The position numbers were made by a program, and so were the translations under genes. Source: Solimonas sp. K1W22B-7 (GTDB lineage Bacteria; Pseudomonadota; Gammaproteobacteria; Nevskiales; Nevskiaceae). Taken from it: a DNA stretch of 64,000 bases. A model generated the notes under the pieces. It made no database searches and was not told the origin of the DNA. It saw nothing but the letters and a program-made list of their open reading frames with translations. Of this stretch, positions 47,375-49,749 are shown in pieces (the first letter of the stretch is position 1; each line of letters opens with the position of its first letter). The DNA lies in NCBI RefSeq assembly GCF_003428335.1, contig NZ_CP031704.1, forward strand, positions 4,972,071 through 5,036,070, written 5' to 3'.

Positions 47375-48076
47375 ATGAAGACCAAAACGACCAGCAAGAC
47401 CGTCAAGAAAGCCGCCGCGCGCACGTCCGTCAAGGCGGTGGCGCCGGAGCGCGCCAGTACGCGCACCCGGCAAAAGGAGGCCACTCGCGCAGCGATCCTG
47501 CAGGCCGCACTGCAGGTGTTCGCCGAGCACGGCTACGCCGGCAGCTCGACGCGTGACATCGCCGCGCTCGCCGGTGCCCACCACGCGTTGATCAAGTACT
47601 ACTTCCAGAACAAGGAAGCCCTGTGGCGCGAGGCGGTGACCTACCTGTTCCAGCGCCAGGCTGAGGAACTGAGCTTCGTGCCTGAACCCGGCGCGTTGAG
47701 CACCGCGAAAGGCCGCCGCCAGCATGCGCGCGAATTGCTGCGCCGCTATGTCGTCTACTGCGCGCGCCATCCCGAGCACGCGCGCCTGATGGTGCAGGAA
47801 AGCGTCCGCGACAACGATCGCCTGCGCTGGGTCGTAGACACCTTCATCCGATACACCGCACAGGGCGCAGCGTCGCTGGTCGAGCTGCTGCAGAAGGAGA
47901 AAATGCTGCCGGCGGGGGTATCCCCGGTCGCGATGATCTACATCATCGTCGGCGCGTCTCAGCAGTTTTACACGCTGGCACCCGAAGTCCGCCGCGTCTG
48001 GAAGATCGACCCGACTTCCGACGCGGCGATCGAGGCGCATGTCGACGCGCTGCTGGCCGTCCTCATCCGCGACTAG
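47375..48076 (+). CDS. TetR-family transcriptional regulator
   Basis: 233 aa. A Lys/Ala-rich N-terminal tail (about 1-30) precedes the TetR helix-turn-helix (AAILQAALQVFAEHGYAGSSTRDIAALAGAHHALIKYYFQNKEALW). The ligand domain (about 90-230) is not close to a named subgroup but resembles the TetR_C families found beside TonB-receptor sugar loci. It is divergent from the esterase operon across 230 bases, which contain candidate operator site 1. Its stop TAG lies inside the CTAG flank of the MITE-like element. Confidence 0.85.
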   Translation: MKTKTTSKTVKKAAARTSVKAVAPERASTRTRQKEATRAAILQAALQVFAEHGYAGSSTRDIAALAGAHHALIKYYFQNKEALWREAVTYLFQRQAEELSFVPEPGALSTAKGRRQHARELLRRYVVYCARHPEHARLMVQESVRDNDRLRWVVDTFIRYTAQGAASLVELLQKEKMLPAGVSPVAMIYIIVGASQQFYTLAPEVRRVWKIDPTSDAAIEAHVDALLAVLIRD

Positions 48077-48391
48077 GGCCTGTTAACCCTACGGCAGTCG
48101 CTGCGATGCCCCCGTATTTGCCGCCAGGCAAGGCGCGAGGAGGTCGCTTATCGGGAATAAGAGACTGACGAGGCCATTGGCCCTGCTGAGGAGCGACTCA
48201 ATGTCGCTCCGAAGTAAGCCAATGGCCAGCATGGCGGCAAAGACGGGGGCCCCCGGAGGGCGGGACCGTTTTGGCGCAGGGCGTCGTCCCGACCCGCTTA
48301 TGTACGTCTAGTACACCGCGCGCGCCGGGACATAGCCCTGCACCAAAACGGTCTCCGTCGCAGCGACTGCCGTAGGGTTAACAGGCCCTAG
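48073..48391. mobile_element. MITE-like element with 30-bp perfect terminal inverted repeats
   Basis: The body 48077-48387 begins GGCCTGTTAACCC and ends with its exact inverse; the 30-base arms are identical (48077-48106 and 48358-48387) and CTAG flanks both ends (48073-48076, 48388-48391). Inside, further inverted pairs (48108-48125 with 48233-48250; 48172-48181 with 48218-48227; 48265-48290 with 48328-48352) predict a cruciform of nested hairpins. No open frame for a transposase. The CTAG copies may be a four-base target duplication, as known for some IS5-group elements; family assignment is inference. Confidence 0.75.
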
Positions 48392-49749
48392 CCACCCTTC
48401 TTTTCGCGGCGCGCCGCGAGCTCGTCAACGATTTGGGCATGCAGCGCCAGGCTGATCGGATAGCGACAGATCAGCGCCAGCGAACAGAGACCGCCGATCA
48501 GCGGAATCCAGAACATCATCTGCTTGATGCCATTGATCGTTTCCGGCGACTGCTCGACGTTGGCGACATAGCCGACATGGTTCAATGCGACGCCGAGCAG
48601 GCCGGCGCCGAGTCCGAGCGAAACCTTCTGCCCCAGCACGCCGAGTCCGAACACCAGCGATTCTGTGCGCACGCCGCTGCGCCACTCGCCGTACTCGACG
48701 GTATCCGGCAGCATCGCCCAGAAGCAGACCGCGTAGGCCGCCGAACCGATGCCGATCAGGAACAGCGCGAGGAAGTGCAGCTCCAGCGACGCGCCGTCGA
48801 CGAGGTGCCACATCACCAGGCCGATCAGGCTCGGCACCGCACCGATGATCCAGGCATTGCGCTTGCCCCAGCGCCGCGCGATCCAGGCGAACAGCGGCAC
48901 GAAGAACACCATCGTCAGCGCGGTCAGCGCGAGTGCCGTGCCGCCGAGATCTTCGCGGCCGAAGGCATACTTGAAGTAGTACAGCAGATTCTTGCCGAAC
49001 AGCGTGCTGCAGAACTGGCCGATCATCACCGCGCCGAGCACGACGAGCAGCGCCTTGTTTGAGAGCAGCGCCGCAACCAGCGTGCGCGCACCGACCGGCG
49101 CTTCCTTCGCCGGCTCATCGACGTCGAGCCCGCGTGCCGCCCAGGCAACGAGCAGCATCAGCACGACGGCGACCAGACCGAATGCGATTGCGATCAGCAG
49201 CCAGCCGCGGTTCGGCTCCTCCGTTGTCGCCAATCCGCGCACCAGAGGCAGGGTCAGCGCGGCGACGACCACCGCCGCCAGCGTCGCGAAGATCATCCTG
49301 AAGCCGGCAAGGTCGGCACGCACGCGCGCATCGTTGGTCACGCGTGCGAACAGCGCGGCGTAGGGGATCGCGACGATCGCGTAGACCGTGCGGAACAGGA
49401 AGTGCACGACAGTCGCGAACAGTGCTGCGCCGGCTTCTCCTGCAGTCGGGCCGACGAACATGGCGATGAACGACAGCGCCAGCGGAATGCCGCCGAACAT
49501 GAAGTACGGCCGGTAGCGTCCATAGCGCGTGCGCGTACGGTCGACGACTGCGCCGATCAGCGGATCGAGCGCCGCGTCCCAGATCAGCGCCGCCATGTAG
49601 ATCGCACCAGCGATTTCCGGCCGCAGGCCGACGACGTCCGTATAGAAGAACAGCAGATACAGCGACGCAAACTGCCAGTAGAGATTGAAGCCGAAGTCGC
49701 CCGCGCCGAGCGCGAGCTTGAGGCCGAAGCCCAGTCTGTTGCCGCTCAT
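48388..49749 (-). CDS. GPH-family (MelB-like) sugar:cation symporter
   Basis: 453 aa, twelve predicted helices. Glycoside-pentoside-hexuronide family landmarks: the aspartates of LGAGDFGFNLYW and IWDAALDPLIGAVVDRTRTRYGRYRPYFMFG, plus the second-half repeat GKRNAWIIGAVPSLIG. It probably imports a sugar or small glycoside released in the periplasm. Divergent from the GH5 gene and convergent with tetR, its stop lying in the right CTAG flank of the MITE-like element. Confidence 0.88.
   Translation of the reverse strand: MSGNRLGFGLKLALGAGDFGFNLYWQFASLYLLFFYTDVVGLRPEIAGAIYMAALIWDAALDPLIGAVVDRTRTRYGRYRPYFMFGGIPLALSFIAMFVGPTAGEAGAALFATVVHFLFRTVYAIVAIPYAALFARVTNDARVRADLAGFRMIFATLAAVVVAALTLPLVRGLATTEEPNRGWLLIAIAFGLVAVVLMLLVAWAARGLDVDEPAKEAPVGARTLVAALLSNKALLVVLGAVMIGQFCSTLFGKNLLYYFKYAFGREDLGGTALALTALTMVFFVPLFAWIARRWGKRNAWIIGAVPSLIGLVMWHLVDGASLELHFLALFLIGIGSAAYAVCFWAMLPDTVEYGEWRSGVRTESLVFGLGVLGQKVSLGLGAGLLGVALNHVGYVANVEQSPETINGIKQMMFWIPLIGGLCSLALICRYPISLALHAQIVDELAARREKKGG

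Follow-up and report, generated by a model that had tools for sequence, protein, structure and literature searches.

A MITE-like element of nested palindromes in Solimonas sp. K1W22B-7 that probably inserts at TA and rebuilds stop codons

The DNA analyzed here is a 64,000-nucleotide stretch of Solimonas sp. K1W22B-7 (GCF_003428335.1, NZ_CP031704.1, positions 4,972,071-5,036,070, forward strand), referred to below as the window. Between a tetR-family regulator and a convergent symporter gene it carries a 311-bp palindromic element (48077-48387), bounded by CTAG at 48073-48076 and CTAG at 48388-48391. This element is probably non-autonomous mobile DNA resembling a miniature inverted-repeat transposable element (MITE); it appears to consist of nested palindromes, to insert at TA within YTAR, and to rebuild the stop codons that it meets. 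Related copies are dispersed through the genome and mostly lie at YTAR targets; many coincide with stop codons, and four are missing from orthologous sites in relatives. Their pairs covary without strand bias, and their interior is shared with other palindromes.

Copies and distribution

A preliminary description, made from the sequence of the window, had called the element MITE-like, and genome searches bear this out, with at least 30 copies in its own genome and matches in relatives. As in MITEs generally, the element is short and non-coding, with terminal inverted repeats and many dispersed copies. The window element has 95 matches in its own genome; 30 of these loci were taken, and 24 of the 30 are full copies of 269-270 bp from end to end. 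The genome search gave matches in 24 of 61 genomes (own included), among them all four of the genus. The window element was not matched in plasmids or phages by a distant blastn search. Exact strings of 12-15 bases from the element, six in all, occur in 4 papers, none of which, to judge by title, concerns bacterial repeats.

The conserved core of the interior, GCCAGGCAAGGCGCGAGGAG, occurs in at least 120 stretches in named genomes, 80 of them among the matches listed (L183-L262). The taxa among the matches listed are mostly Gammaproteobacteria (Solimonas, Nevskia, Hydrocarboniphaga, Alcanivorax, Salinicola, Microbulbifer, and Chromatiales), with some others. Arms were found in 51 of these 80 loci and none in 29; the armless loci include some situated at the ends of contigs and a few possible chance matches (e.g. 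L203, L233).

Target and empty sites

The target was read from 93 distinct copies with GGGYCTGT at both ends and arms complementary at 15 or more of 20 positions (29 from the own genome, 20 from relatives, and 44 from the 120 stretches in named genomes). TA flanks both sides in 59 copies, one side in 20, and neither side in 14. Among the doubly TA-flanked copies, the bases outside the TA are variable at either end (for example CTA..TAA or TTA..TAG); the two flanking 4-mers are equal in 29 of the 59 and unequal in 30.

Element-free orthologous sites were recovered at four insertions; the added target bases are exact at one, and the three further sites are supportive. The exact empty site lies between folP and glmM, where the sequence is GGGCTAG-element-CTAGAGAGATAACGATATG in the own genome and GGGCTAGAGAGATAACGATATG in G002 and G003. 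Between bamA and skp, bamA without the element ends in TGA in G002 and in TAA in G003, in a comparison that left out loci recovered on the other strand, G001 among them. At a convergent PadR/EAL pair, the own copy provides both stops, and the element is absent in G001-G003; by our reading of the frames, the stops there come from one shared CTAG in G001, a shared TTAG in G002, and separate stops in G003. The fourth insertion, at a sigma-factor gene, has the sequence GGTTAG-element-TAATGGAGTG in the own genome; relatives G002 and G003 have equal spacing, no element, and differing sequence around the stop.

The preliminary description considered CTAG as a possible target duplication whose single copy, after precise removal, would supply the stops of both convergent genes in the window. 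The folP-glmM site, the only exact one, fits a duplication of 2 to 4 bp and hence CTAG too; judging from the flanks, a YTAR target with a 2-bp TA duplication would join the target and empty-site data most simply. The shared stop has its equivalent at the PadR/EAL pair rather than at the window copy. None of the three genus relatives has a close orthologue of the symporter (distant relatives of at most 31% identity in G002 and G003, none in G001), so the window's own empty site was not seen, and on the same grounds the locus seems accessory.

Stop codons

The element begins with G on both strands, so that TA followed by this G makes a TAG stop. An element entering a TAG or TAA stop at its TA would restore the stop and leave the protein unchanged, and where convergent genes overlap by YTAR the stop would be restored on both sides. 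Insertions elsewhere in genes may mostly have been lost, a purging that would leave many surviving copies on stops.

The preliminary description had placed the ends of the window copy on stop codons, and such coincidence recurs at other copies, far more often than with other frames. YTAG is found at 44 element ends of the own genome, where the longest open frame is the TAG frame in 26 cases and the other frames in 10 and 8. The frame test used all upstream open stretches of 60 codons or more, in three frames, with Pfam matches at E up to 0.001: 16 of 27 open reading frames (ORFs) in the TAG frame had a match, versus 0 of 32 in the other frames (Fisher 1e-7). In other taxa (the 80 listed loci), the corresponding figures are 12/24 and 2/33 (Fisher 3e-4). 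The open-frame count alone is weaker there than the Pfam test (55 TA ends; TAG frame longest in 26, others in 12 and 17). Besides the window, L015 and L236 (Solimonas fluminis) have a Pfam-supported convergent gene ending on each side, and several lone ends, apparently remnants, also lie at stops when read by eye. A window-trained codon score proved a poor gene caller, calling antisense frames, and was replaced by the three-frame Pfam test.

Of the 49 YTAR sites surveyed in the window, 7 fall at stops according to crude gene calls; for CTAG the figure was 2 of 14, and those two are suggested to be the element's own ends. This survey did not separate target choice from purging in the stop preference. 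CTAG is strongly depleted across the window, with 14 observed versus 201 expected from base composition.

Architecture of the window copy

The copy measures 319 bp counting both CTAGs, and the coordinates given for it in the preliminary description hold. Its terminal inverted repeats, put there at 30 bp, are perfect and slightly longer (34 bp with the CTAGs counted in). The internal hairpins are likewise present, as two inverted repeats (48108-48129/48229-48250, 91%; 48264-48297/48320-48353, 82%). Folding energies are -229.1 kcal/mol on the plus strand and -237.8 kcal/mol on the minus strand (z ~ -18 each; 0/100 shuffles as good). No ORF in the ORF list, which holds ORFs of at least 90 aa, is confined to the element.

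Comparison of copies points to three nested levels. Level 1 would be a palindrome with ends GGGCCTGTYA..TRACAGGCCC that inserts at TA in YTAR and leaves TA on both sides; level 2 would be a pair of large hairpins of ~210 bp at its center, a layout with counterparts in palindromes with quite different arms; level 3 would be a 54-bp hairpin inserted into a level 2 hairpin. The features of the locus are as follows.

48074-48075, no strand: putative left TA of the target, within CTAG 48073-48076 (sequence and target rule)
48389-48390, no strand: putative right TA of the target, within CTAG 48388-48391 (sequence and target rule)
48076-48388, no strand: whole element under the TA rule (GGGCC...GGCCC), 313 bp; sister copies are usually 270 bp including both 4-bp ends
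48073-48106, plus strand: left outer arm of the level 1 palindrome (inverted-repeat search; covariation)
48358-48391, minus strand: right outer arm, level 1, 100% complementary to the left arm (inverted-repeat search; covariation)
48107-48251, plus strand: inner hairpin A, level 2, holding the conserved core at 48123-48142
48173-48226, plus strand: nested hairpin, level 3, 54 bp, missing from 270-bp copies (alignment)
48252-48260, plus strand: small hairpin CCCGGAGGG between A and B, its stem unchanged in 24/24 copies of alignment A1
48261-48357, plus strand: inner hairpin B, level 2 (inverted-repeat search, predicted structure)
48301-48315, plus strand: tip of hairpin B, TGTAC-NNNNN-GTACA, its stem unchanged in 24/24 copies and its loop highly variable
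47375-48076, plus strand: tetR-family regulator with TetR_N, its TAG stop (frame ending at 48076) made of TA and the first G of the element
48388-49749, minus strand: MFS_2 symporter-type gene, its MFS_2 match reaching profile position 426 of 427 and its TAG stop (frame ending at 48388) made of TA and the terminal G of the element on the minus strand

Relative to the 270-bp copies, the level 3 hairpin replaces 5 bases. Extra hairpins also occur in L002 and, in two places, in L003, and a 46-bp sequence like the level 3 hairpin stands alone at L037. Arm-only palindromes of ~57 bp were found at seven loci (L031, L032, L033, L158, L159, L161, and L166). In L161 (own genome, C1:3132400-3136400, ~2004-2060), the 57-bp palindrome lies inside a gene resembling, by eye, a GFA-type (zinc-binding CxC) protein, an intragenic insertion.

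Pairing, covariation and shared interior

In alignment A1, 98.4% of 2447 cells are paired, and 40 of 102 pairs changed on both sides against a shuffle mean of 21; the structure was predicted from the same alignment, which somewhat favors these pairing figures. With slid partners as controls, pairing falls to 37-43%. In the arm, 14 bp are variable, with a difference of 44% between copies versus 5.4% within a copy; the figure for the interior is 14.5%. For the pair L005 and L015, the difference is 1.5% inside and 57% in the arm. The non-Watson-Crick pairs comprise 25 G.T, 27 A.C, and 13 others. A single selected RNA strand should favor G.T, whereas G.T and A.C are about equal, and this indicates an upkeep that is symmetric and not confined to one RNA strand.

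Arm-templated correction of quasi-palindromes is a known mechanism. Here one arm may serve as the template that corrects the other at the DNA level, which, from the pattern of differences, is the most likely way in which arm complementarity is kept; alternatively, pairing may be required during movement. Classes of arm, hairpin A, and hairpin B occur in many combinations, which suggests exchange of whole stems.

The interior is also found between other arms. Visual inspection of L035 and L036 in the own genome shows a CCC/GGG hairpin flanked by these two hairpin kinds and enclosed by arms GAGCTTATCCGTG.. or GAGCCTATCCGTG.., and in L026 the interior sits between a third kind of arms. The arms enclosing the core in other genomes include AGAGCCTATCCGTAAATAAATCA (L211), AGGGAAGCACCGATG (L208), and TAAGGGCTCGTAAATGAATAACG (L256). 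A resemblance between hairpin A and the reverse of hairpin B proved weak (23/1000 shuffles as good) and was not relied on.

Two further loci hold hairpins like repetitive extragenic palindromic (REP) sequences. L059 has, from 1595, two CGTC-type REP-like hairpins (CGTCATTGCGAGGAGC..) in tandem, adjoining a copy of a related element family with GAGCTTATCC ends. L150 (own genome, C1:56350-60360) has two ends of different arm classes and a GTGGGAGCGGCTTTAGCCGCGA REP-like hairpin in the middle.

Search for the mover

Four transposase families were sought in 41 genomes, the own included: DDE_3 was found in 11, DUF4096 in 7, DDE_Tnp_1 in 23, and Y1_Tnp in 28. DDE_Tnp_1 is absent from G000 and G001 and DUF4096 from G000-G002; Y1_Tnp is the only one of the four present in all four genus genomes. 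Loci were made for part of the matches (30 for DDE_3, 13 for DUF4096, 20 each for Y1_Tnp and DDE_Tnp_1, plus 18 further Y1 regions), and the DUF4096 loci were covered by end-pair scan only.

The preliminary description proposed looking for a full-length insertion sequence (IS) with the same ends; none was found in the loci read. The 30 DDE_3 loci include no GGGCCTGT-ended IS, and the recognizable ends of DDE_3 (IS630) elements in G017 and the own genome are other sequences. In the end-pair scan of the loci then collected, TAGGGYCTGTYNNC pairs lie 40-440 bp apart and none more than 450. Candidate partners were rejected: L131 (G017, DDE_3) holds a transposon inserted into a copy of the element; L331 (G017, DDE_Tnp_1) looked promising, with ends 1.48 kb apart, but proved to be a copy that an IS had entered at TTAA; and the matches at L364 (Y1_Tnp, G002) look like chance, inside genes. 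At L331 and L131, IS of the DDE_Tnp_1 and DDE_3 types thus sit at TTAA or TA of an arm, and these palindromes serve other transposons as landing places. At L315/L359 (own genome, C1:3914780 region), a Y1 transposase gene is flanked on both sides by GTAGGAGCGG REP sequences, an apparent REPtron.

Since no transposase with the ends of the element was found, we infer the mover: it would be a trans-acting DDE transposase of a kind that duplicates TA.

Weighing the explanations

Several points weigh against a TA-targeting, nested element with such a mover. The DDE_3 family has no match in G001 and G002 although both are rich in copies, and no transposase locus read (part of the matches, 41 genomes) has GGGCCTGT ends as its own. 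TA is its own reverse complement, so the flanking TA could belong to the arms and be carried by the element; for the same reason an added TA or CTAG is demonstrated only by an empty site, exact at folP-glmM alone, and G001 has neither element nor CTAG there. Among the 14 non-TA copies, equal dinucleotides occur in 5, yet three of these are CG in 93-bp elements and could be arm, and only 2 are true direct repeats (CA..CA, TG..TG). As for the stops, 28 of the 44 own-genome YTAG ends have no Pfam-matched gene ending there. The nesting has been deduced by comparing copies and not by observing jumps.

An unlikely alternative is a giant REP doublet forming a hairpin (REPIN) or bacterial interspersed mosaic element (BIME) moved from single-stranded DNA by a Y1 transposase, of the REP-associated tyrosine transposase (RAYT) type or the type associated with terminal inverted repeats (TIRYT). 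On this view, two REP-like hairpins in inverted orientation, their ends paired, would be inserted 3' of YTAG with no target duplication, and the second TA would be borne by the element. The palindromic TA, by which most copies cannot tell a duplication from an element-borne TA, suits this proposal, as do the two interior hairpins and the pairing upkeep, symmetric on both strands; the outer bases, however, are variable at both ends, the pattern expected of a symmetric YTAR target. Y1_Tnp alone reaches all four genus genomes, but it is also found in genomes without the element by the window query (e.g. G007, G013, G014), and paired GGGCCTGT ends surround the gene at none of the nine own-genome Y1 loci L351-L359. 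The element has a weak likeness to CGTC-type REP (8/2000 shuffles as good, the comparison chosen after the fact), and GTAG REP ends are known to supply TAG stops (PMC3733652).

It is quite improbable that the element is an ordinary IS5-type MITE duplicating the full 4-bp CTAG or YTAA, like MITEPsy1 of Pseudomonas syringae. The folP-glmM empty site fits a 4-bp CTAG duplication equally well as TA, but the unequal 4-mers in 30/59 copies do not agree with a 4-bp YTAR duplication, and the absences of DDE_Tnp_1 and DUF4096 from genus genomes also argue against it.

A structured RNA or bidirectional transcription terminator under selection at gene 3' ends is very unlikely, despite the location of copies there, the covariation, and the very stable folds on both strands. 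The window element has no match in Rfam (E up to 1), and 10 other loci searched at a loose threshold gave two tRNAs and hits below the gathering score. The equality of G.T and A.C mismatches (25 vs 27) does not favor an RNA. The preliminary description had suggested a bidirectional terminator, which is disfavored because the element has no terminator-like T-run and sister copies lie between bamA and skp and between folP and glmM, there 13 bp before glmM; these genes are co-directional and close together in G002 and G003. Both glmM and bamA are essential in well-studied bacteria. A scan for GC hairpins followed by a T-run found one site in the region, at 48491-48504 on the minus strand, outside the element.

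An immobile origin, as old conserved intergenic sequence or local duplication, the outcome that the preliminary description had named as fatal to its own reading, has in its favor only that the window copy itself has no orthologous empty site, and is already refuted by at least 30 copies at unrelated places and by the element-free orthologous sites.

Relation to known systems

REPINs, which are associated with RAYTs, are inverted pairs of hairpins, palindromic and extragenic. The element is like them in these respects; unlike them it is 270 bp long and has TA on both sides and no GTAG foot. REP and REPIN hairpins are 20-40 bp with an unpaired GTAG or CGTC foot, and hairpins A and B are far longer, with footless ends. 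Y1_Tnp, although in all four genus genomes, is not flanked by the element in the loci read.

According to PMC3733652, GTAG REPs supply TAG stops, and REP dimers lie inside longer palindromes, namely GTAG-15 in Anabaena variabilis and CGTC-1 in Halothiobacillus neapolitanus. A hairpin pair in mid-palindrome and ends giving TAG stops are thus shared features. In contrast, the hairpins here are much larger, the palindrome also exists without them (the ~57-bp copies), and a like interior is found in several unrelated palindromes.

MITEs driven by the IS630/Tc1-mariner family, such as the repeat unit of pneumococcus (RUP), are likewise non-coding, with terminal inverted repeats and a TA target. The proposed mover of RUP is IS630-Spn1 (PMC2229807), and ISY100, of the same family, inserts into TA and duplicates it, which is the target rule of IS630/Tc1-mariner elements (PMC2170065). 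Here, in contrast, the loci read contain no IS630 that shares the ends of the element, the arms around a conserved double hairpin covary as they change from copy to copy, and YTAR and stop codons are preferred. MITEPsy1, an IS5-type element of 100 bp, shares the CTAG or YTAA target and, unlike the present copies with their often unequal 4-mers, is reported to make a 4-bp duplication; nested hairpins are not mentioned for it in the accessible part of PMC3189936.

Significance

A more far-reaching possibility, held tentatively, is that of parasites within parasites on three storeys. A TA-targeting palindrome would host a separately moving double hairpin, itself invaded by a small hairpin. The double hairpin would enter the centers of many unrelated palindromes in Gammaproteobacteria and perhaps beyond, with each level targeting hairpin tips or centers. 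Fold-back copying would make the second arm from the first, so that the arms change together, and tuning to stops would allow near-costless spread.

The stop-codon association offers a concrete rule, tested in two independent locus sets, for how mobile DNA is tolerated in a dense bacterial genome: an element that starts with G and targets TA would rebuild, on both strands, whatever TAA or TAG stop it enters. The shared interior in unrelated palindromes bears on how REP-like repeats spread without a transposase of their own, a question left open in PMC3733652. The pairing data suggest, further, that a long bacterial palindrome can covary strongly without being a functional RNA, and that strand-symmetric mismatches may point instead to upkeep at the DNA level.
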